From a virus, in the IMG/VR virus record IMGVR_UViG_3300027983_000118, positions 1 through 24,348 of that record: DNA of 24,348 nucleotides; one strand, given 5' to 3'. The translations under genes were made by a program, and so were the position numbers. Positions within the stretch are counted from its first letter, which is position 1, and the number at the start of each line of letters is the position of its first letter. Shown piece after piece: positions 1,162 to 17,857 of this stretch. Under the pieces are notes generated by a model. That model was not told the origin of the DNA, made no database searches, and saw only the letters and a program-made list of their open reading frames with translations.

Positions 1162-3488
1162 TACTGAATCTCGTCAAGAATAGATTTGATGATCTTCTTT
1201 TCAACCTCTGGGTCAATACCATCGCTCAAGCTGAGAGTCATAGTCTCTTCGTCCCAGACGGCGCCACCGGACACATCTTGATCGCGCTCGATCTCAAAAT
1301 TAGATGGAAGTGCTTTCCAAGCAACCATTCTGTTCGGGGCGAATATTACTTTCCGCGCCTCTTCGATGATGAACATTGTTCCGTCAAGGTCTGAGCCTTC
1401 TTCAATCGCTACAAGAATGTTTGCGCCTTCAGACTTGGCCGATAGAAATGCTTCCTCGTTATGAAGATTTCTAATAACTTTTACAGCGTCAGAAGCGGAA
1501 TGCCAATCGGCAAAGTCAGCAAAATGCTTGCGAGCAGCATCTGCTTCGTAATCCACAAGATAGTTGCTGACTTCTGAGCGAACAGTTTCTGTCGTCCTGG
1601 AAACAACATCAACTGATTCCTGCTTGGCCCAATCATCTACTTCAGAAGATGCTCCCGAAAGAATCAAACGAATATCTTCAACAGCAGAAACGATCCCGCT
1701 GTTGTCTAGGCCGTTATCTAGATCACTAATGTAAAACTCATACTGACTTTCATAGAAGTCAGTCAAGCGCGACTTCAGATCACGAGCCGCAATACGAGCT
1801 TGCTTGCTCGAGAAATGTGCGGTGTCAGGAAGAGAGCTAATGAAATCTGAGTCAGAATCCGAAAGGTAAATAACTTCTTTCGGCTGGATGTAAGAGAAGC
1901 CATTGCTAGAAGGAACAGTCCCGACTTGCTGGCCGGGTACAGGTGCAACTTCTCCAACACCGGCAGCAGACTGCTGGCTGGCAAGTTCCTGATCTCGCCT
2001 ATTTTGCTCTGCCCAAGGAACAATTGGCGTTCCGCGATCTTCAAGAACTTTCTGAAGATCTACCAATTTAATAATTTCCTTAGCGCCTGCTTCTTGCTGG
2101 CCAAGTAGTTGAACTAGCTGACGCATGAATTCTGTGTCCTCGTCGGCAAACCCTTGAATTATAATTTCCGCTGCTCCGCCAGCAGCAGCAAATTCAGGGT
2201 AGTTGACTGCGATCCATTGCGGGATCATGTAGCGGTTAATATTTTCTTGAATCTGCGCCGAAAGAACAGCCTGAGATTCGGTGAAAGAGTCACTCATCTC
2301 GGCGGCGACATTGCGACTTGAAGTTCCTCCGCCGCCTTCAATTAATGATTGTTCTGGAATAAATAAGGCCCGAAGCTTCATAATATCCAAGTATGAAAAA
2401 CTATTATCAAATGGATCGAAATTAATTGCGTCCTTAGTAAATTCTAATTCCCATTGACGAAGCGTTCCTCTTCCGTTAGCGTCCTCATAAGGCTCTGAAG
2501 GCAAAGCGATAACGCCGCCAGAACGCATACGCGAACCCATTTCTAGCGCGTACTCTTGATACGAAGTTTCAATTCCAGTTAGTGGGTCTTGGAAATAACC
2601 CTCTGGGTATCGGACAATAACTGACGGATCTGCTTTCCGTTCAAAGGCACGATCAGCAATGGCCCAGCGGAACCAATAACTCCACCAAAAGCGATACGCA
2701 TATCCGAGACGCGGATATCCAAAGATGCTGCCGAAAGCAGCTTCCTTCTCGTTAGTTACCCAGAGAGAATGGTCAAGGTCAATTTTATATGTGCTGTCCT
2801 GGTTCGATCCGCCCGAACCACCTGAAGTTGTGATACCAAGCGCAGTGTTCGCGTCAGAAGGAGAATAAAGAATTCCATCGAACTCGCCATCGTTATTCCA
2901 TTGAGGCTCAACGCCTTCAGGACGAAGGGAGATAAATTGCTTCCAAGCAATAGGGTCAATGCTGCCGCTTGACCAAATAGGTTTTTCTACTTGCTCGCCG
3001 CTTGTCGGATTAATTTCAACGTAAGTGCCTACTGGCTGGCGGAATTCAAAGCGCTTAGCAATTGCTTGAAACCCAAAGTCCAGCATGTTTGTATTTTGTA
3101 GTACAAAGCTTGGGTAAATACGGCGCAAATCGTGATCCAGATGTGCTGCAATTTGTGCATTTGGCCCCTTGCTATCTTTTGCGTTAATAAACCACTTAGC
3201 ACGAATGTGAGGGGTCTTAATAAAGCTAAGGCCAAAGCCGAGCATTGCATCACGACGCATCTGGCGCAATTTTGAAAGAGGAATTCTCTCTACTTCATAA
3301 GGACTGCCGAGCTGGTCAGAAACTTCTTTCCAGTTACCAAAGATAGATTGAACTCGGCTCGATGGGGCTACTTCTTTTTTGCCTACTGCTCCCCTTACGC
3401 GAGCAGCTTCTTCTGGCGTAATAGCGCTTACTGGGGCGCCATTACTTTTGGCGCCGCCGCCCTTTGAACTTGCTGGAACATTTGTCAC
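1161..3488 (-). CDS. Portal protein with long C-terminal extension
   Basis: A 775-residue protein starting at GTG 3488, 10 nt after the terminase stop. The portal forms the ring at the capsid vertex through which DNA is packaged. The call rests on position directly downstream of the large terminase and on portal-like sequence: an N-terminal region with RRDAMLGFGLSFIK, a central Trp/Tyr/Arg-rich block (RFWWSYWFRWAIADRAFERKA), and a later GGGGTSSRNVAAEMSDSF followed by a long helix, as in portal stem and crown regions. A Pro/Gln/Ser-rich linker near residues 510-535 separates about 230 further residues that go beyond a usual portal of roughly 450-550 aa. That C-terminal part is acidic and helical and could be a fused minor-head domain; I do not recognise it. 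Confidence 0.8.
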   Translation of the reverse strand: MTNVPASSKGGGAKSNGAPVSAITPEEAARVRGAVGKKEVAPSSRVQSIFGNWKEVSDQLGSPYEVERIPLSKLRQMRRDAMLGFGLSFIKTPHIRAKWFINAKDSKGPNAQIAAHLDHDLRRIYPSFVLQNTNMLDFGFQAIAKRFEFRQPVGTYVEINPTSGEQVEKPIWSSGSIDPIAWKQFISLRPEGVEPQWNNDGEFDGILYSPSDANTALGITTSGGSGGSNQDSTYKIDLDHSLWVTNEKEAAFGSIFGYPRLGYAYRFWWSYWFRWAIADRAFERKADPSVIVRYPEGYFQDPLTGIETSYQEYALEMGSRMRSGGVIALPSEPYEDANGRGTLRQWELEFTKDAINFDPFDNSFSYLDIMKLRALFIPEQSLIEGGGGTSSRNVAAEMSDSFTESQAVLSAQIQENINRYMIPQWIAVNYPEFAAAGGAAEIIIQGFADEDTEFMRQLVQLLGQQEAGAKEIIKLVDLQKVLEDRGTPIVPWAEQNRRDQELASQQSAAGVGEVAPVPGQQVGTVPSSNGFSYIQPKEVIYLSDSDSDFISSLPDTAHFSSKQARIAARDLKSRLTDFYESQYEFYISDLDNGLDNSGIVSAVEDIRLILSGASSEVDDWAKQESVDVVSRTTETVRSEVSNYLVDYEADAARKHFADFADWHSASDAVKVIRNLHNEEAFLSAKSEGANILVAIEEGSDLDGTMFIIEEARKVIFAPNRMVAWKALPSNFEIERDQDVSGGAVWDEETMTLSLSDGIDPEVEKKIIKSILDEIQ

Positions 3489-3498
3489 TTAAAGTCTC

Positions 3499-6400
3499 TC
3501 ATTTCTTAACCCGAGTTACAGGTTCACCTAGGCTTTTGCGCCAATTATCATAATCATCAGTCTGCCCTTTGAATCCTACTGGAGTTGGGCCTGCTGAACC
3601 TGTTTTACTGATTGTTGCTTGACGAGGTATGGTTTTAGCTGCGGGCAAATTGCCGGATATGCTTAGAGCGCGTTGCTTTATCTTCTTAATGTTAGCGACG
3701 GCGTACCTAAAATTGGACATACAGTTAGAACTTCTGACACTATCGGCAAAAAATTCATGGGCGCCATCAACTGTCAAGTCATAAACAGTTTCATTAGACA
3801 CTTTTCTTACCGACACCACAGGAACGAGAACAATATTTTCTGGGAACGTATTTGTTGCACTTAAATTCGCTTCCGCATCGCTCGCAATTCCTGATTTCGT
3901 CATCAACGCCAGCCGCCCTTCTGTGTGCAGATTTGCAGGCATTTGAACAGAATCTTGCTCTTCCAGACGGAGAAGTGTCTCCAAACTCATCTGCACACCA
4001 AACGCACGACTTTTGGAGTGGGTTTTGCTTAAGCGATTCGTGATATTTTCGATTTCCAATCGAGGCTTTGATTCTAGTTTCTGAATTGAGAAGATTTTCT
4101 GTGTGATTTTTTGGCCTAATCTTATCGAGATGATTTTTTCTTTTCTCGCTGCACGGTTGACCTTTATGAATCTCAATGTGTTCTTCTCTGGTAAGACAAA
4201 TAAGATTTTCAACATTGTTGTTGAGCGAGTCAAAGTCTGCGTGATGTATGTGGCAGCCCTCTGGAATATCGCCATTTTCTGCTTTCCAGACTTCTCTGTG
4301 TAAAGACTCAATCCCGAGATAAGCTTCTTGAATCCAAGGTCTGTAGTAGATGCGAGATGATTCATCTTTGGCTTTTGGGTAACGCCGAAACCAAATTCCT
4401 CTGAATTCGATGACTTCTGCTTTGCCTCTTGTGAAAGTTTCCATACTTGATCATTGTATCGGATATCAGAGGTATCAACCCAACCTTTTCCTTCTATCCA
4501 CCAAGGATGATCGCCAGTAGATTTAAGTGAAGTTCCGTCAGCTAACTCAATCTCATATACATCTTGATTAAATCTTGTAATGCCAGCAGCAGTTACTTGA
4601 TGGGGGCCAAAAACAGTATTGACGAACTGACCGACCTGAACATCTTCAATTGAAATATCGCCATCAACAGTGTTGACAATCGTTCCCGCTGGCAGGCAGT
4701 GGTTAAATTTATCGATTTGGCTACCTGTACGCGGATCAGCCCGCCAAGCCTTGATCTCTCTGACAAACATTGGGCAGGCTTCACCGTCAACAACAAAGAG
4801 GTCATCGTCAAACATTGAACGAACAGATTTAATGTGCTCGTCAAATTCTCTTGTTGCGTGCCACTTAGTCGGAAGACCCATTGCTTTCCAATCCATTCTG
4901 GCGGCCTTGCCCTGCGGGTCTGCAAATCTCTCGTAAACACGGAAACTATTGTGCTTGATAGCCCATCTTTTTTCTCTTTCTTGAACAAGCTTTCCTAATT
5001 GCTCATTGCCAATCTCAGAAATATAAATCTCGCCAAAACAAACTAGAGTCCCTTCCTTCAGGCGGCGCGTAATGATTTTATCTTCTGGGTGGTTCCAAAT
5101 TTCAACATCAACTTCAAAAGCTAGAAGCTGATACCAATTAACAGCGTGGGGATTAGTGTTGCCTGACCACACGGGCTTGCCATTGCGTCGAACATAAACC
5201 GTGTGGTGTTCAGGCAAATGGACGCAATAAACTTTACCCATATTCCATTCAGCAGAATTTACCTCAGACTTTACAGGCTTTTGCAAAGGCTTAGAGGCAA
5301 TTTGCGGTTCTAGCCGTTTCTCAATAAAACTCACAATGTACTGCGGCAATCTTGCATTGATCTTGCGCCCGTCAATGATGGAATCGCGTGGTTCACGCAT
5401 AGAAATTGTTGCTGCGCTTCCGGCGTACATGGTAATTTCCTGAAGATCATCAGCCAATTGCTTTGACCCTGTATAAATGCGCTTACTGTGATCGCGTTCG
5501 CCATCATTATCGATGTGGCCGTCGCCTCTCATATGCCAATCTAGATAAATCTTTAGCAAGCTTGCGTCCCACTGCTTCATATCATCGGGCAAGAATTTTT
5601 CACCAGCCTTGCCAAACTGCGCGAAATATGCGTAAAGGCGCGGATCACAAATCTTCAATTGTCCACGCTTAGGCTCGTAGCTGATGTGATCCAGAACTTT
5701 GAAATAACGCCCAGCAATACGCTTAATCTGCGTAATATTCTCGCGGTTGTAATGCGTAAACCCAACATCGCCCGACTGACGACGCTCACCGTGTTTGTTC
5801 TTTCCAAGGTGGGTGTGACCCTCGGCCATCCAAAAGCCTAAAAGCGCAGCCCAATCTTCGGGATCAATGATTACGTCAGGTAGAACACGACCGTCTGCTG
5901 CGGTAATGCCAGAGAGAACAAATGGAGCAAGCACTGCGTCTTCGCGACCCTTGCTGGTTCTGGTAACGCGCAGTCCATCTCCACGTTCGCCAATGCTGTC
6001 GGAACGAATGATTCGCCAATCATCGCGACCCTTGCCGCGTAATGGCGCCACAAGCATATTGTGATCAGCACTAACTAAAAGATCCACGGAACGGTTTTCA
6101 TATCGCTCCATGACCCCGCCGTACTCCTTCTTCACAACGGCTTCAGGCTTCTGAAAAATAACTTTATGCGTCTCGATATTCAGTGAAGCAAATTTGTCCT
6201 CTTCGGCTATTTCAGGAAAAGGAATCCAGCCTCGATCCGTAAGCACCTCTGTCTGTTCGTCATAGCAGCCGCCCCAATCAACTGAAAGAAAAATAGGGCC
6301 ATTTGCAGGATCTACTTCAAAGTTTCTAATGCAATGTCTGTCATCGCGCCATTGAGAAACGTAATGGTGGTGCATTTCTGGCTTAGCGCAGAGCTGCTGC

Positions 6401-8403
6401 ACTTCAAAAGTTACGCGGTCATTCTCGGTGAACTGTTTAACAAGATCGCTGTATGGCTGCCAGCCACGAGATTTATAAAAGTCGCCATTGCAAACATCGC
6501 GTAAAAGTCTTGGCGAACCGTCCTCCCATTCACCTTTACGAATGTTGTCGCATGGGCATCTAATTTCTTCAGCTAAGTCTGGATTCGCAATCTGACAATT
6601 CTTTTGTTGGCTTGCGGTTTCCTTAATACACCAGATATACAGCTTGCGAGGAGGCTTATAGCCCTCTGCAATCGCCTTTTCAATCTCGTCAATTAATTCT
6701 TGGACGCGACCAGACGGGCCTTTACGAGTTGATGTCGCAATGTCTTGCGGGCTAGCAATCGTCCCGTTCTTAATCTTCTTTGAGATCGTCATGTTGCGAC
6801 TGTTATGAGTAACGATAAAATCATTTGTCAAATAAGTGCTGTCGGCGTTATCAACGCCAATGCAACGTACTTTTGTTTTTCTGCTTGGTTTAATAGATTT
6901 AATACTGGGGTCAAGAGTTCTTTGTCGCATTGCCATTTTTTCTACTTTACGCGGAAGCGTAAAAGGCATCGTGAAATCAACAAATGAAATGTCAAGCGTG
7001 TAAAGAATTCCCTTAGACCACTCACTGTTAAAGTTTTTCTGTCGCAAAATTGCCCTGCCGCCAAGACTAAAAACAATCTCTCTGAGATCTAGCGCAAGTT
7101 GTTTAGAAACAGTTGCGTATTGACCAACGCAATTGTCTTGCATCGCGCACCCATCAGTATCCATTAGCCCGCGAATAATTTCTAAACGGTCTTTGGCCGA
7201 CGAAAACTTATAGAGATCAGGAATAAATTTGTCGTGACTTTTTTTGCTTTCTAATCCAATCGAGTCGATGACAGATTTAAATGTTCTGTCAGATCCAGAT
7301 CTAACAATATTGTGATTGGCATATTTGCCAGCAACACAAGAAGAAACTCTGTATTCATCTAAGAAGCTGTCAACTCGCTGAACAATGTGGTCGTCTACAG
7401 AACGAAAAGCGATATTTTTCCCAAGATATCCATCACCTAGCAAAACGCCTAAAACATATGGATGAATAGGAAGTTCAGAATATGAAAATTCAACAGGTTG
7501 ATTGGCGGGAACTCCATAACGGTATTGGCCTATTATTTTTGTTCCATTTTCAATCATTTCTGATGTTCTTACTGTTTTCCAAACGCCTCTCCGTCGTTGA
7601 GAACCACCGGCAACAGTCCAAAGGTGGTCTGCACAACATTCTGTTGATCTTCCGTCAGTGAGCGTCACTCGGTAAACATCACGTTCTCCATAGTCCATGA
7701 CTTTAATTACTTTTGTTGGCATACCATCGCGCCCGTAAACAAAATCTCCCAAACGCAAATCGCCCATCGCTTTATGACCAGTCGGCGTTGGAATTAAAGT
7801 GTCTAATGGTTGTGACTCAAGCCAAGTGTCATCGCGCATAAGCTCAATCTCGTCAGCGTGAGCAATCTGCGGGTGTGGCCCGTTCACGGCCTCGGGCGTG
7901 CTACCCAGCACTTCAATCTTTGATCCATTAGCAAAGACTGTTTCACGCATCAGAGAAGAAACAATCTCGGGCTTTTTATTGCCCTTATCATCAAACACCC
8001 AATGCTTCAGGTGGGCATAAGCGCGGAATGACTGAGCTTCGATGGCCCCGAAAGTACAGCTTTCAATCCCAGGCTTGAAGCGGGCGTTAATCCAATGGAG
8101 AACGGCTACAAGGAAGGTCTTGCTGCCACCACGATTTGCAACTGCCAACGCCGCGTCAACGCGATCAAAATAAAGATCTGCAAGAAAAGTAAATGGGGCG
8201 ACATGGTTCTCGCAAACAGCAGTTCGCGGAACGTCAATGCCAAGTTCGTAAATCAACCATTCATGTAGTTCATCATCGTTTTGAGGGCCATTTTCATTTA
8301 GTTGTTTTTCAAGTTGCTCTTGAGCTGACAACATCTCTTTAAGCTCATCGTCCGAAAGATTGCCGAGAATCTCGAGCATTTTTTCTGATTCGTTTTTACT
8401 CAT
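3499..8403 (-). CDS. terL: Terminase large subunit precursor with three inteins
   Basis: A 1634-residue precursor of the DNA-packaging motor ATPase/nuclease. A TTG immediately upstream (8406) could also start it, but ATG 8403 is preferred; it overlaps the small subunit by 8 nt. Visible motifs are a Walker A-like NRGGSKT (90-96), Walker B with D184-E185 (HADEIELM), the nuclease Asp in SVDWGG (709), and a C-terminal nuclease motif reconstituted as DKFNH-CMSNFRYA. Three inteins interrupt it: Ser197-Asn534 (+1 Ser), Cys713-Asn1082 (+1 Thr) and Cys1236-Asn1560 (+1 Cys). Removing them leaves about 601 residues, normal for a large terminase, and restores contiguous motifs such as SVDWGG-TNPHA. The inteins sit just after Walker B, at the first nuclease motif and in the last nuclease motif. 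Production of active packaging enzyme therefore needs three splicing reactions. Confidence 0.95.
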   Translation of the reverse strand: MSKNESEKMLEILGNLSDDELKEMLSAQEQLEKQLNENGPQNDDELHEWLIYELGIDVPRTAVCENHVAPFTFLADLYFDRVDAALAVANRGGSKTFLVAVLHWINARFKPGIESCTFGAIEAQSFRAYAHLKHWVFDDKGNKKPEIVSSLMRETVFANGSKIEVLGSTPEAVNGPHPQIAHADEIELMRDDTWLESQPLDTLIPTPTGHKAMGDLRLGDFVYGRDGMPTKVIKVMDYGERDVYRVTLTDGRSTECCADHLWTVAGGSQRRRGVWKTVRTSEMIENGTKIIGQYRYGVPANQPVEFSYSELPIHPYVLGVLLGDGYLGKNIAFRSVDDHIVQRVDSFLDEYRVSSCVAGKYANHNIVRSGSDRTFKSVIDSIGLESKKSHDKFIPDLYKFSSAKDRLEIIRGLMDTDGCAMQDNCVGQYATVSKQLALDLREIVFSLGGRAILRQKNFNSEWSKGILYTLDISFVDFTMPFTLPRKVEKMAMRQRTLDPSIKSIKPSRKTKVRCIGVDNADSTYLTNDFIVTHNSRNMTISKKIKNGTIASPQDIATSTRKGPSGRVQELIDEIEKAIAEGYKPPRKLYIWCIKETASQQKNCQIANPDLAEEIRCPCDNIRKGEWEDGSPRLLRDVCNGDFYKSRGWQPYSDLVKQFTENDRVTFEVQQLCAKPEMHHHYVSQWRDDRHCIRNFEVDPANGPIFLSVDWGGCYDEQTEVLTDRGWIPFPEIAEEDKFASLNIETHKVIFQKPEAVVKKEYGGVMERYENRSVDLLVSADHNMLVAPLRGKGRDDWRIIRSDSIGERGDGLRVTRTSKGREDAVLAPFVLSGITAADGRVLPDVIIDPEDWAALLGFWMAEGHTHLGKNKHGERRQSGDVGFTHYNRENITQIKRIAGRYFKVLDHISYEPKRGQLKICDPRLYAYFAQFGKAGEKFLPDDMKQWDASLLKIYLDWHMRGDGHIDNDGERDHSKRIYTGSKQLADDLQEITMYAGSAATISMREPRDSIIDGRKINARLPQYIVSFIEKRLEPQIASKPLQKPVKSEVNSAEWNMGKVYCVHLPEHHTVYVRRNGKPVWSGNTNPHAVNWYQLLAFEVDVEIWNHPEDKIITRRLKEGTLVCFGEIYISEIGNEQLGKLVQEREKRWAIKHNSFRVYERFADPQGKAARMDWKAMGLPTKWHATREFDEHIKSVRSMFDDDLFVVDGEACPMFVREIKAWRADPRTGSQIDKFNHCLPAGTIVNTVDGDISIEDVQVGQFVNTVFGPHQVTAAGITRFNQDVYEIELADGTSLKSTGDHPWWIEGKGWVDTSDIRYNDQVWKLSQEAKQKSSNSEEFGFGVTQKPKMNHLASTTDLGFKKLISGLSLYTEKSGKQKMAIFQRAATYITQTLTRSTTMLKILFVLPEKNTLRFIKVNRAARKEKIISIRLGQKITQKIFSIQKLESKPRLEIENITNRLSKTHSKSRAFGVQMSLETLLRLEEQDSVQMPANLHTEGRLALMTKSGIASDAEANLSATNTFPENIVLVPVVSVRKVSNETVYDLTVDGAHEFFADSVRSSNCMSNFRYAVANIKKIKQRALSISGNLPAAKTIPRQATISKTGSAGPTPVGFKGQTDDYDNWRKSLGEPVTRVKK
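3724..4698 (-). mobile_element. Intein 3 of TerL, hosting an out-of-frame HNH gene
   Basis: In the terminase frame this is a 325-residue intein from Cys1236 to Asn1560, with Cys as the first residue of the following extein. Block A is CLPAGTIVNTVDGDISIEDV; block B contains DGTSLKSTGDHPWW; blocks F and G are VSNETVYDLTVDGAHEFFAD and SVRSSN. The penultimate residue is Ser instead of the common His. Between blocks B and F (about residues 1322-1525) the terminase frame has no LAGLIDADG or HNH motif and no recognisable domain; it reads as a low-information basic linker. The same DNA encodes an HNH endonuclease in another frame. The splicing halves alone add up to a mini-intein of about 120 residues. 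Confidence 0.92.
3794..4444 (-). CDS. HNH homing endonuclease nested out of frame inside intein 3
   Basis: A complete 216-codon gene (ATG to TAA) on the same strand as terL, with its ATG beginning at the third base of a terL codon. The protein has an HNH core: LHREVW (48-53), HIHHADFDSLNNNVENL (66-82, His67/68 and the Asn cluster) and TREEHIEIH (85-93). Two treble-clef or zinc modules follow: CVWC (147-150) with FCSNAC (165-170), and CERC (187-190) with YCSRSC (204-209). This is the organisation of phage HNH homing endonucleases with C-terminal DNA-binding zinc fingers. It fills exactly the gap between the splicing blocks of intein 3 and its last codons overlap block F. No Shine-Dalgarno sequence precedes the ATG. 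It would act by cutting intein-free terL alleles; the activity is inferred from family knowledge. Confidence 0.88.
   Translation of the reverse strand: METFTRGKAEVIEFRGIWFRRYPKAKDESSRIYYRPWIQEAYLGIESLHREVWKAENGDIPEGCHIHHADFDSLNNNVENLICLTREEHIEIHKGQPCSEKRKNHLDKIRPKNHTENLLNSETRIKASIGNRKYHESLKQNPLQKSCVWCADEFGDTSPSGRARFCSNACKSAHRRAAGVDDEIRNCERCGSEFKCNKYVPRKYCSRSCGVGKKSV
5158..6267 (-). mobile_element. Intein 2 of TerL, with LAGLIDADG endonuclease domain
   Basis: A 370-residue intein, Cys713 to Asn1082, with Thr as +1 residue. Block A is CYDEQTEVLTDRGWIPFPEI and block B includes LLVSADHNMLVAP. An in-frame endonuclease domain shows two LAGLIDADG-type helices: LLGFWMAEGHTHLG (854-867) and LKIYLDWHMRGDGHID (950-965), each ending in an acidic-Gly pair. 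The C-terminal blocks are KVYCVHLPEHHTVYVRRNGK and PVWSGN; the penultimate residue is Gly rather than His. It splits the terminase nuclease motif SVDWGG from TNPHAVNWYQ, so the spliced product regains SVDWGGTNPHA beside the catalytic Asp. Both splicing and endonuclease parts look intact. Confidence 0.95.
6802..7815 (-). mobile_element. Intein 1 of TerL, Ser-1 type, with LAGLIDADG endonuclease domain
   Basis: A 338-residue intein, Ser197 to Asn534, with Ser as +1 residue. Block A reads SQPLDTLIPTPTGHKAMGDL; aligning it to the usual C-x-P-x-D-T pattern makes Ser the first residue and restores the extein DTWLE-SRNMT, typical of the region after Walker B in phage terminases. Block B includes STECCADHLW. 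Two LAGLIDADG-type helices are visible: YVLGVLLGDGYL (316-327) and IIRGLMDTDGCA (409-420). The C-terminal blocks include DSTYLTNDFIVTHN, with the standard His-Asn end. If Gln198 were the first residue, the extein would gain a Ser; the Ser-1 reading is preferred but not proved. Confidence 0.93.
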
Positions 8404-13644: not shown

Positions 13645-14658
13645 TTACCTCATTGAGATTTCGAGCGCTTTCGCTCTGATTTCTTCCTGAAACGTAAGAT
13701 CGCCAGCGATAAATTCGCGCAGCTTCTTTTCGCCCTGGAACTTTTGATCGCCATAATAATAGTAGGCGCCCTTCTGTTGTACTAAACCGTAATAACGTGC
13801 AGCTTTGGAAACTTCAAACAGCCGATCAAACGTGAGTGAGTCAAGATCTAAGCGCATTGTAGCTGTCCGAAATGGACGGCAAACACGAGATTTTTGAATA
13901 CGAGCCTTGATCTCAACTCCGTCAGGTTCTGCTTGACCGCTCATTCCTTTGGTTTGCGTGGCCTTCTCGTCCAAACTACCTTCGCTGTTGCGAAACAACC
14001 AACTACCTTTCTTGAAGTGAACAGTCATTGACGACTGATGATCAAGAATTCTTCCGCCGGGAGCTTCTTCTGCCCCTGTGCGGAAGTTTGTACGCACCTG
14101 ATCAACCATAATAACTGTGTTCTCGGTAGCGTCAAAACGCTCGTTTAAGCGTCTAAAGGATTTGCCCCAAGAGCGAGCAGTAATGCCGGGCCGCCAGTCC
14201 CTTACGTCGGCATTAAGCTCGTCCTCAGAGACTGCTGCGGTACAAGAATCGACAACGTGAAGATGCACAACACTAAAGAGAGCCTCCATCTTATCTGTGA
14301 TCTCTTCGATTGTTGTTCCTTCAACAACAATTAAGTCATCTACGTTAACGCCAATTTTTTCTGCCGTGAACTTTGGATCGTATTGCTTTTCTACGTTGTA
14401 GTAAGCGCACTTCAAGCCTTGCTTCTGAGCTTCGCGGATTACTGATAACGCAGTAAGCGATTTGGCAGAAGAATATCCACCGAAAAATCTAGACCAGCGA
14501 CCGATTGGAAGACCGCCGCCCATAGCAACGTCAAGTTCAAGGCTGCCTGTTGAAATCCTCGCAGCACTTTCAAAATCATTTCCCATGCGAATTGAATTCT
14601 TGTACTTACTGTTGATTTTAGAAACAATTTCATCGTAATTTTCTGTGTTAACTGACAT
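13645..14658 (-). CDS. recA: RecA-like recombinase with altered Walker A
   Basis: A 337-residue recombinase that would catalyse homologous pairing and strand exchange. STGSLELDVAMGGGLPIGRWSRFFG leads into the P-loop GGYSSAKS (60-67), then AYYNVEKQYDPKFTAEKIGV (the RecA catalytic-Glu strand) and the Walker B strand LHVVDSCTAAV. A later IMVDQVRTN fits the RecA L1-side strand. The P-loop has Ala65 in place of the Gly normally before Lys (GPESSGKT in bacterial RecA), which is unusual though the Lys-Ser pair is kept. Its ATG overlaps the DnaE stop by 11 nt. The C-terminal part (about 270-337) is shorter than and unlike that of bacterial RecA, as in other phage RecA-like proteins. Confidence 0.9.
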   Translation of the reverse strand: MSVNTENYDEIVSKINSKYKNSIRMGNDFESAARISTGSLELDVAMGGGLPIGRWSRFFGGYSSAKSLTALSVIREAQKQGLKCAYYNVEKQYDPKFTAEKIGVNVDDLIVVEGTTIEEITDKMEALFSVVHLHVVDSCTAAVSEDELNADVRDWRPGITARSWGKSFRRLNERFDATENTVIMVDQVRTNFRTGAEEAPGGRILDHQSSMTVHFKKGSWLFRNSEGSLDEKATQTKGMSGQAEPDGVEIKARIQKSRVCRPFRTATMRLDLDSLTFDRLFEVSKAARYYGLVQQKGAYYYYGDQKFQGEKKLREFIAGDLTFQEEIRAKALEISMR

Positions 14659-17600
14659 CTAATTCCATTTCTTTAGCGAATTGTTCTACAGAAGCAGCGT
14701 GTTCGCAAACAACGCTAACTGTTCCTTGCCAAGAGTCTGTTGGCCCAGTGACCATGATCGTTTTCCCCTCTGAAAGCAAATCGCCATACATACCAAGCGA
14801 TTCTTTCCAGAATCTTACTCGCCATTCATTCAGGCCGTAGGCCAATATAACAGTCGCGAACGGGCTTCCGCCTTTTGTTCGCTTGCGGTCTACCTTAATG
14901 ATTTCCCCGCCAATAACAACATTCCCGCTTTCAGTTTCATTGACTTCTTCTTGACTAAAGATATTTGATTCAATTAGTTCAGAATACTTTTGAATGTCTG
15001 CGGTGACAGTCAAGTTCATCCCTAGGCGCTCCCGCTCCCAAATTGAAATCTCGCTTTCAGTTGCTTCATCGCGAGCGCCGCAAAAATCAAACGCGCCGGA
15101 TTCTTGAAGCGCCATAAGCGCAGTGTTATTAACTGCCCTTGCAGCAATTCTAGAACGAAAATTCTCCATTGAATCATAAATGCCTTTTTCTCTGTTGCTG
15201 ATAATTGATTTAGCGCCTACTTCACCAACTCCCTTGATGGCCAGCAGGCCAACACGAATTCCTTCATCATCAACAGACCAGCCAACTTCTGAGTTATTGA
15301 CGCACGGCGGTCTAATTTGTACGCCGCGCATCCTCGCTTCACGAATTACCTTAGAAACAAACTGTTGTTTCTCTTGAGGCTTTGACCCTGATGGGTAAGT
15401 CAAAACAGCGGCGTAAAACTCGAGCGGATACTTAGTTTTAAGGTACATATCTTGATAAGCCTGCAAAGCGTATGAGGCGGAATGCGACTTATTGAATCCG
15501 TAATTTCCAAACTCAAGAATTTTATGCCAAATCTCGTCTGCGGTCTTGCGATCAATACCTTTATTTTCGCAACCTTCAAACCATTTGACCTCAAAGCGCT
15601 TCATAAACTTTTTCGCAGCAGAACCGCCCTTAATTCTGTAAAGCTTGCCCATTGCCTTGCGTAAATCATCTGCCTCCCCGCCAGAGAAGCCGCCAATAGT
15701 CTTTGAAATCTCCATTACCTGCTCTTGATAGGTAACAAGCCCATAAGTCTCAGACAAGATCGGCTCAATAAGTGGGTGCCAAGTGTCGTACTCGCCACTT
15801 CGCTTGCGCTCGCCGTAATCCCAAGTAACCCCGCCTTTCATTGGGCCTGGCCGGTACAGAGCGTTTGCTGCTGCAAGATCAAGAGCGACATCAGGCTTGA
15901 TGTCTTTTAGCAGACCAGTAATCCCGCTACTGCCAAACTGGAAAATCCCAATCGTGTGGCCATTGCCGAATCCATTCATTACTTCTCTATCAACGTCGTA
16001 TGGATCTCTTAGCGGGCCGAGCGAGTAAAGATCAACTGTTTCTCCGTATCGCTTCTCAATCAAATTGCAAGCATAAGCGTGACGATCAAGACCAGTAATG
16101 CCAAGAGCATCAATCTTAAGAAAGCCGTAGTCAGAGACGACTGGAAAATCTGCTGCGTCTGACCAAGAGGTGACAAGATCGCCTTTTTTGCCTCTCTCCA
16201 AGGCTATGTATTCAACAACTGGGCCGGGAGTAATGATAATTCCAGCAGCGTGTTTGCCAGCGTTCTTAACAGATCCTTCGAGGCGCAAAGCGTGTTCCCA
16301 AATATCTGGATGTTTTTTCTTAAAGTCTTTTAGCCTGTTGTTGTTCGGAAGAATCTCTTCAAGTGTCGTGTCCTCGTCGTCTTGACGAATATCAATTGTG
16401 TCAGTTACAGCGTGTGCCTCGCCGTATGGGATATCGTAAACGCGACAGAGATCTTGGATGACAGATTTAGGCTGAAAGCGCGAGTGGGTGATGATGTCAG
16501 CAACGTGATCTGCACCATATTTGCTGGCAATATAAGCCTTTACCTCGCCACGCCTATTGCTCTGGAAGTCAAGGTCGATGTCTGGAAGCCCCTTGCGCTC
16601 AGGATTGAGGAAGCGCTCAAACAGAAGACCCCAAGCAATTGGGTCAATGGCGACAATTCCAACTAGATAAGAGATAAGAGAGCCAGCAGCAGACCCGCGA
16701 CCAAGACCGACTCTAATGCCAGTCTTTTTTGACCAGCGCACCACATCGCCAACCAGCACAAAGTAGTCAATAACTCCCTTGCTGGCAAGAATTTCCCACT
16801 CCATCGCGATCCGCTTTAAATAAACTTCTTTGGGCCATTTCTCCCAATGACTTTCTGGGTAATTGGTAAGAATTTTCTCTAGGCCGTCGTTGATCCATTC
16901 ACGCAAGATCTGTTCTGCTGTTATCTTCTCGCCGTCATCAATAACCTTTGGCAGTTTTGGAGATTTGTCCAAAAGAAATGGTGTTGCTTTTCTTACAAAC
17001 AGGCCAGTGTTATCAAGTGATTCTTGAACAAAAGATTCAGAAAGGCCAGGATGATTTTCTCTAAACCAGTCAAACATTTCTACTTCAGAAGAAAGATAAA
17101 GGGTTGGATTTAACTCTGCGAGATAAACAGGTTTCCCTTTTTCTCTGTCTTCCTCAACTCTTGCAAATGAAGTTGCTGCGCCACACATTTTTGCGATCCT
17201 GTGTGTTTCGGCCCATTCTTTGAATGGGAAGTGGGCGTCATTGGTGGCGATTACGCCAATCCCACGTTCCTTTGAAATACCAGCGATCTCGAGATTGAGA
17301 ATTTTCTGTTGCTCAAAATCGTGAGGCATAATCTCGAGCCAGAAGTCTTCACCAAAGATTGAAGTCATGGTGTCGATATATTCTCTGACGCTAACTGAGT
17401 CGCCGCCCTCAATAAGATTGTTCAACCAGCCAGAAACACAAGCGGAAGAACAAGCAAGACCTTCCGAGTGCCTGCGCAGAAGGTCGTAGTCAACGCACGG
17501 ATATTGGTAGTAGCCGCCGCCATCGTCAATTTCAGCGTAAGCAATACTGACAAGACGAAGAAGATTGTGCCAACCTCGAAGGTTCTTGGCAGATAAAACA

Positions 17601-17857
17601 AGATGCCAAGCCTGTCGTGTGTCTTTGCTGGAGCGATCCGGCCTGAAATAAGCCTCTACGCCAGAGATCGGCAAGATGCCGACATCACGGCAGGCTTCGA
17701 TGTGCTCTAGTGCTCCGCTGAGCGAGCCGTGATCGGTCTGCGATAGGGCAAACTGATTAAGCTCAGCTGCTCTTTCAGCATATTGCTTGGACGAGCCACA
17801 GCCGTCAAGTCGAGAATACTGTGAGTGCCGATCTTCGATGCAAGTGTACGAAGTCAC
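14648..17857 (-). CDS. dnaE: DNA polymerase III alpha subunit (DnaE-type), start region frame-shifted
   Basis: A C-family replicative polymerase of 1069 residues as read from GTG 17857. The N-terminal PHP domain shows HSQYSRLDGCG, TDHGSLSGALE, GVEAYF and IATNDAHF. The polymerase core shows GLGRGSAAGSLISYLVGI, the catalytic PDIDLDF (Asp426, Asp428), the third Asp in LKIDALG (583), and FNKSHSASYALQAYQ. A tandem HhH-like segment (LLAIKGVGEVGAKSI) and an OB-like C-terminal domain (VVIGGEIIKVDRKRTKGG) follow, as in DnaE. The natural start is probably ATG 17864, which overlaps the upstream stop as TGATG behind AAGGAAGGTGAT, but that frame reads FVHLH and then ends after 19 codons because of a 7-nt duplication. 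Read from GTG, the first conserved PHP histidine is lost. Confidence 0.93.
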   Translation of the reverse strand: MTSYTCIEDRHSQYSRLDGCGSSKQYAERAAELNQFALSQTDHGSLSGALEHIEACRDVGILPISGVEAYFRPDRSSKDTRQAWHLVLSAKNLRGWHNLLRLVSIAYAEIDDGGGYYQYPCVDYDLLRRHSEGLACSSACVSGWLNNLIEGGDSVSVREYIDTMTSIFGEDFWLEIMPHDFEQQKILNLEIAGISKERGIGVIATNDAHFPFKEWAETHRIAKMCGAATSFARVEEDREKGKPVYLAELNPTLYLSSEVEMFDWFRENHPGLSESFVQESLDNTGLFVRKATPFLLDKSPKLPKVIDDGEKITAEQILREWINDGLEKILTNYPESHWEKWPKEVYLKRIAMEWEILASKGVIDYFVLVGDVVRWSKKTGIRVGLGRGSAAGSLISYLVGIVAIDPIAWGLLFERFLNPERKGLPDIDLDFQSNRRGEVKAYIASKYGADHVADIITHSRFQPKSVIQDLCRVYDIPYGEAHAVTDTIDIRQDDEDTTLEEILPNNNRLKDFKKKHPDIWEHALRLEGSVKNAGKHAAGIIITPGPVVEYIALERGKKGDLVTSWSDAADFPVVSDYGFLKIDALGITGLDRHAYACNLIEKRYGETVDLYSLGPLRDPYDVDREVMNGFGNGHTIGIFQFGSSGITGLLKDIKPDVALDLAAANALYRPGPMKGGVTWDYGERKRSGEYDTWHPLIEPILSETYGLVTYQEQVMEISKTIGGFSGGEADDLRKAMGKLYRIKGGSAAKKFMKRFEVKWFEGCENKGIDRKTADEIWHKILEFGNYGFNKSHSASYALQAYQDMYLKTKYPLEFYAAVLTYPSGSKPQEKQQFVSKVIREARMRGVQIRPPCVNNSEVGWSVDDEGIRVGLLAIKGVGEVGAKSIISNREKGIYDSMENFRSRIAARAVNNTALMALQESGAFDFCGARDEATESEISIWERERLGMNLTVTADIQKYSELIESNIFSQEEVNETESGNVVIGGEIIKVDRKRTKGGSPFATVILAYGLNEWRVRFWKESLGMYGDLLSEGKTIMVTGPTDSWQGTVSVVCEHAASVEQFAKEMELDVS
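17829..17839 (-). repeat. Imperfect 7-nt tandem duplication disrupting the dnaE start
   Basis: On the minus strand, ATCGAAG is followed directly by ATCG. Removing one 7-nt unit joins the ATG 17864 frame to the main dnaE frame and yields FVHLHRHSQYSRLDG, which matches the canonical DnaE PHP opening (E. coli FVHLRVHSDYSMIDG). With the unit present, the ATG frame stops after 19 codons. Confidence 0.7.

Follow-up and report, generated by a model that had tools for sequence, protein, structure and literature searches.

Inteins normally carry LAGLIDADG or HNH domains in frame. Split inteins with a free endonuclease between their halves were reportedly described by Dassa and colleagues in 2009 as 'fractured genes'. 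Two systems from mycobacteriophages are also close to the locus analyzed here. In the ShiLan domain, an insertion in a methylase, an HNH gene lies out of frame, and its authors considered the insertion to be neither an intein nor an intron (Arsenault, Gosselin and Gogarten, 2025; PMC11855218). In the large subunit of the terminase (TerL), some mycobacteriophage inteins were active both in splicing and in cutting their target DNA (Kelley et al., 2016; PMC5050341). Among the open-access papers searched, hidden out-of-frame HNH genes appear only in PMC11855218 and its companion papers, none of them in an intein. In the same papers we found neither an intein with its endonuclease as a separate overlapping gene nor a size for such a family.

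Here we describe a locus in a 24,348-nucleotide stretch of viral DNA (hereafter, the window) that resembles each of these systems and departs from each. We interpret it, with a probability of about 0.88, as a mobile mini-intein whose endonuclease is encoded by a separate overlapping gene, and inteins with an HNH gene nested in this way apparently form an undescribed class. As in the ShiLan insertion, an HNH with zinc modules occupies the third frame of an in-frame insertion, the host frame is free of stops, and the distribution is patchy, suggesting homing; the out-of-frame HNH in an insertion with an open host frame that typifies ShiLan is thus found in the window. However, the ShiLan insertion has no detectable splicing domain and sits in a non-essential methylase, whereas here a complete and conserved mini-intein surrounds the HNH gene, and the host gene encodes the essential terminase; the phages concerned belong to bacteria of many phyla. 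The mycobacteriophage inteins of PMC5050341 share the location in terL, but their endonuclease activity was ascribed to the intein's own domain and they are all inserted in the ATPase domain; in the window, the nuclease has its own gene, which overlaps the intein, and the insertion is at nuclease motif III. With the fractured genes the locus shares a free-standing endonuclease at the intein's endonuclease slot, and relatives of the HNH do occur in split terL inteins of that kind. In contrast, the window and 180 others (among the matches listed) have an intein made as one continuous chain, with translation passing through the HNH gene. Ordinary large inteins likewise combine a splicing domain with a homing endonuclease placed, as here, between blocks B and F, but in the window the HNH is in the +2 frame, the intein frame contains no endonuclease, and the nuclease is not part of the intein protein.

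The third terL intein and its nested HNH gene

The terL gene of the window is a single open frame that runs from 8403 to 3499 (minus strand, as are all features below) and has three inteins inside. The N and C halves of the third intein are therefore not on separate polypeptides, as they would be in a split intein. The gene was identified from its neighbors, a portal gene (phrog_113) and a terS-like ORF, and from terL relatives; its Pfam and PHROG matches are the inteins themselves. Intein 3 (3724..4698) has 325 amino acids, from C1 to N325, and is inserted at TerL nuclease motif III (KFNH/C...SSN/CMSNFRYA, with slashes at the intein boundaries). It matches Pfam Intein_splicing in the terL frame (E = 2e-13) and has the features of a class 1 intein: C1, T61 and H64 (the Thr-x-x-His of block B), block F, N325, and a Cys at position +1 of the C-extein (codon 3721..3723). 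C1, T61, H64 and N325 are invariant across 28-30 aligned family members, and C1, the block B Thr and His, block F, the terminal Asn and a +1 Cys, Ser or Thr are kept in all or nearly all members. The intein ends in SSN, not HN; LVSN is frequent in the family.

The N-terminal splicing half, with blocks A and B (residues 1-90; 4429..4698), was modelled by AlphaFold at pLDDT 94-98, and the C-terminal half, with blocks F and G (residues 283-325; 3724..3852), at 92-98 from about residue 290 onward. A Foldseek search with the model supports a Hint fold: 25 of the top 26 PDB matches (E<0.001) are inteins, intein-like or hedgehog Hint domains. The closest solved relatives of the two halves are the gp41-1 and NrdJ-1 inteins, both also matched by the N-terminal half, and the TM score against gp41-1 is 0.86 by target length. 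Between the halves lie residues 94-282 (3853..4419), the intein-frame reading of the HNH gene, which are predicted to be disordered (pLDDT <50).

The HNH homing endonuclease gene (3794..4444) comprises 216 codons in the +2 (-1) frame relative to terL, opens with ATG and closes with TAA, its start lying shortly after block B and its end shortly before block F; the third frame across it has 15 stops. Its product matches HNH_3 (E=3e-14) and phrog_15471 (E=5e-26) and, modelled alone, reaches a pLDDT of 87.5. The catalytic core (residues 47-93; 4166..4306; Pfam match 48-89) has the HNH-N-H motif, with H65, H67, H68, N76 and H89 invariant in relatives. Two zinc-type modules follow, C147 C150 C166 C170 (3935..4006), with Cys invariant in relatives, and C187 C190 C205 C209 (3818..3886), invariant in A5. 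The first-pass annotation had reported both the intact splicing blocks and an out-of-frame HNH ORF with two zinc modules between blocks B and F, and all of this is confirmed here. I-HmuI is the sole PDB sequence match to the HNH protein (E=0.0014); a fold search of the HNH model against the PDB returned nothing below E=0.001, the best being again I-HmuI (0.27).

The two other inteins of this terL look different. Intein 1 (approximately 6802-7812) is class-3-like in appearance, with no Cys1, a PLDTLIPTPTG start, a DHLW block and a VTHN/S end, and has a LAGLIDADG_3 domain in frame. Intein 2 (5158-6267; SVDWGG/C...WSGN/T) apparently has an in-frame LAGLIDADG-like domain and lies at TerL nuclease motif I, so that the terL inteins break up terminase active-site motifs. 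Elsewhere in the window (13645-17857), a RecA-like gene is immediately succeeded by one resembling DNA polymerase III alpha, a call made by eye from the translations.

Distribution of the nested arrangement and an empty site

We surveyed annotated phages by tblastn with the HNH protein and found three unrelated phages with the same terL layout: Acinetobacter phage Highwayman, Tetrasphaera phage TJE1 and a Rhodobacteraceae phage. In all three, terL is annotated just as 'terminase large subunit'. A scan of IMG/VR with an HNH alignment gave at least 80 loci, in most of which the HNH gene is in +2 relative to an uninterrupted terL-intein frame. Since classing loci by openness would be circular, they were classed by matching their N and C splicing blocks to profiles, ignoring openness. 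In this first set both blocks were found in 78 loci and shared a frame in 74; the HNH gene was in +2 in all 74, and 73 were free of stops. In GTDB genomes both blocks occurred in one frame in 11 cases, nine of them stop-free, including the Frankia sp. AgB32 assembly. An intein-led scan that did not require the HNH yielded 67 new loci, 66 of which had a hidden HNH in +2 and zero stops; its tblastn query contained the hidden stretch, making it HNH-independent and not perfectly blind.

Viral contigs, phage records and genomes, including two further scans, were pooled and clustered at 95% HNH identity, giving at least 240 clusters. Among the matches listed, 181 of 240 clusters have the HNH gene nested in +2, with both intein halves in one frame and zero stops in it, which supports the proposal that selection keeps the intein frame open. 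In none of these 240 was a nested HNH in frame, and in none was it open in +1. The rest consists of 32 split or interrupted inteins, 22 clusters without an intein (those inspected adjoin terL) and five with one block only, four of which lie at contig ends. The form without an HNH, for which a homologue search had been proposed, is represented by the one remaining locus of the intein-led scan, a 146-residue mini-intein at the same terL site (L188, about 2983-3453). Highwayman, Tetrasphaera phage TJE1 and Frankia sp. AgB32 are cultured members. The arrangement is a large mobile-intein family, not a quirk or an error. We found no close relative of the window phage, including any with an empty site, and selection was measured on relatives.

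One pair of Acinetobacter phages has nearly identical terL genes with and without the element. The flanking terL of Highwayman and Acba_21 is 99.4% identical over 1214 nt, and Highwayman has an in-frame unit of 981 nt that is absent from Acba_21 (IDA/C...N/CRYAIE versus IDA/LRYALE). This unit holds both the intein and the HNH gene. The first 1052 nt of the flank are identical, and all seven mismatches fall in the last ~165 nt before the insertion. A second mismatch cluster lies at the other edge, where the +1 Leu is replaced by a splicing-competent Cys. This is the pattern that homing with co-conversion would leave, and as a single pair it is strong evidence for mobility in this case rather than general proof.

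Selection, stop avoidance and expression in the two frames

Differences between nested HNH genes pile up at HNH codon position 3, which is terL position 2. Across the twelve nested pairs that were computable or nearly so (one was saturated), dN/dS in the HNH frame was 0.09-0.34; most terL-frame values were 0.6-1.9, and a single outlier came near 7. This marks the HNH as a genuine gene kept by purifying selection, and what selection demands of the intein frame across it is essentially that it stay open. The description of the DNA as dual-coded thus holds in a lopsided sense: the HNH frame encodes a conserved protein, but the intein frame across the same stretch is mostly just stop-free and its product is predicted to be disordered. 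With selection on the HNH frame and a near-identical phage that lacks exactly the intein and HNH unit, the earlier suggestion that a separate endonuclease mobilizes the element gains support. Several nested pairs had terL-frame dN/dS of 0.6-1.0 versus 1.4-1.8 in split pairs, and amino-acid constraint on the intein-frame loop was considered on this basis and dropped, the pairs being too few to claim it.

The openness of the intein frame had been put at once in 10^4 by an equal-base estimate. Openness beyond chance is upheld, but the figure is replaced here by codon-level shuffles, in which the HNH protein was fixed and codons were either drawn as GC-matched synonyms or permuted among the gene's own, with free and split relatives as controls. 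For the window, 7.8 stops are expected in the terL frame from GC-matched codons (zero was reached in 0 of 300 draws) and 1.2 from own-codon permutation. For the first 74 nested genes the expectations are 414 and 149 stops, respectively, and none was observed. This set of 74 had been picked by openness, which is why the block-based classing and the controls were added. In the third frame of the same genes, 1374 stops were observed versus 1456 expected; in 10 non-nested relatives, 63 versus 66. In split or free-standing relatives near terL, the intein frame contains about as many stops as chance predicts. Stop avoidance is suggestive at the window locus alone, and the family-wide pattern is overwhelming.

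Only two kinds of site can give a stop in the +2 frame: a Leu, Ile or Val codon whose last base is A or G, when certain bases follow, and an ATG followed by A. Stop-making contexts number 0 of 1800 in nested genes versus 88 of 429 in split or free relatives (for ATG before A, 0 of 100 versus 15 of 34), and nested genes still use A/G-ending codons where these are harmless. This suggests why +2 is the permissive frame: just aliphatic and Met codons would need adjusting there, and in +1 the conflict would be with Lys, Glu, Asp, Asn, Ser and Arg codons, which are plentiful.

In the window, the HNH frame is closed by a TGA (4451..4453) three codons 5' of the HNH ATG (TGA-TCA-AGT-ATG). At 65 other loci the corresponding stop lies a median of five codons before the start, and a start codon is present in nearly all nested HNH genes. 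A start this soon after a stop in its own frame favors internal initiation and leaves little room for frameshifting, and internal initiation is probably how the HNH is made. The window ATG has no Shine-Dalgarno match. Among the loci, Shine-Dalgarno enrichment was found in a first set (P=2e-9) and, more weakly, in a second (P=0.003), part of the signal coming from conserved intein Gly-Asp codons. With shuffled intein codons as the control, the excess was modest (mean -4.5 vs -3.7 kcal/mol, P=2e-5), and there was no excess of loci in the lowest 5%.

Alternative explanations and split relatives

From these features we infer protein splicing, HNH translation, DNA cleavage and homing, which would be connected as follows. 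The terL frame would produce a splicing mini-intein with a Hint fold, its endonuclease slot filled by a disordered loop of ~190 residues, and the intein would excise itself together with this loop from the terminase post-translationally. Translated in the +2 frame from an internal start codon, the DNA of the loop would also yield a free-standing HNH homing endonuclease that carries the two zinc modules. This enzyme may cut intein-less terL near nuclease motif III, and repair would then copy the whole unit.

If a -1 ribosomal frameshift occurred during terL translation, the product would instead be a fused TerL-IntN-HNH and no free enzyme would be made. The HNH gene is always in the frame that a -1 shift reaches, but this constant relation is also accounted for by codon chemistry, as only Leu, Ile, Val and Met codons make stops there. 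Moreover, the HNH-frame stop just 5' of the start confines any shift to a few codons, and the presence of a start codon in nearly all loci, with some Shine-Dalgarno signal, points away from a fusion; we consider a frameshift unlikely. Somewhat less probable again is a dead or passive intein, in which a free-standing HNH homing gene would reside in a decayed intein and TerL would tolerate the unspliced insertion. The ShiLan methylase insertion, apparently without a splicing domain (PMC11855218), offers a precedent, and the little amino-acid constraint on the terL-frame loop would fit. Against this, the splicing residues are conserved in all or nearly all members, the Hint fold model is confident, and, with the insert interrupting the third catalytic motif of TerL's nuclease, an unspliced product should be inactive.

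Two further readings are very improbable, and about equally so. Sequencing or assembly errors, in the form of compensating indels that hide an HNH truly in frame, would restore the textbook layout. The same +2 frame, however, recurs in 181 distinct clusters (among the matches listed) from many data sets and cultured phages, with none in frame, and compensating errors cannot account for ~180 independent cases. As for a group I intron in place of an intein, HNH genes of this kind are common in phage group I introns, but no Rfam group I match was found in the window, even at E<1, or in 14 relatives at the gathering level, and the protein frame with its intein blocks is uninterrupted. The first-pass annotation had also allowed for two halves acting as a split intein in homologues; split relatives do exist, as a separate arrangement that is absent from the window.

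About 30 relatives, many from Bacillota, have an N half that ends ahead of the HNH gene and a C half with its own ORF, which begins within the 3' end of the HNH gene; in these relatives the intein frame carries stops. In L061, L065, L071, L083, L094, L098, L102 and L104, terL is present as three overlapping genes (N-extein with N-intein, HNH, and C-intein with C-extein), and a locus from Staphylococcus borealis (L095) is also among the three-gene cases. In Brochothrix phage BL3 (L001, 1918-2604; annotated as gp2 and gp3), a truncated HNH remnant and two stops lie between intein halves in one frame, and this locus may be a decayed or newly split form. Free-standing members of the HNH family are located directly downstream of an intact, intein-less terL in L006, L007, L014, L016, L054, L070 and L248.

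A single stop or frameshift in the intein frame would turn a nested locus into N half, endonuclease and C half as three separate genes. The C half is still in +2 relative to the HNH in 29 of the 32 split or interrupted cases (among the matches listed), as expected if these descended from nested forms; the three that differ are L300, L317 and L251. In the HNH tree, which is unrooted and so gives no direction, the layouts are mixed with several changes, split forms appearing at more than one position. Tentatively, and at slightly less than even odds, we propose that an HNH gene nested in a mini-intein is both a stable, widespread mobile form and a stepping stone to naturally split inteins.

For the separate-gene reading that we prefer, an intein can be mobile without containing its own endonuclease: one DNA stretch serves as splicing loop and homing gene in separate frames, and the evolution of splicing is decoupled from that of the nuclease. 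Hundreds of terminase inteins appear 'endonuclease-free' under in-frame annotation. The family also supplies naturally occurring dual-frame sequences together with their own controls (nested, split and free), and it suggests a route, open to testing, by which split inteins, much used in biotechnology, could arise.
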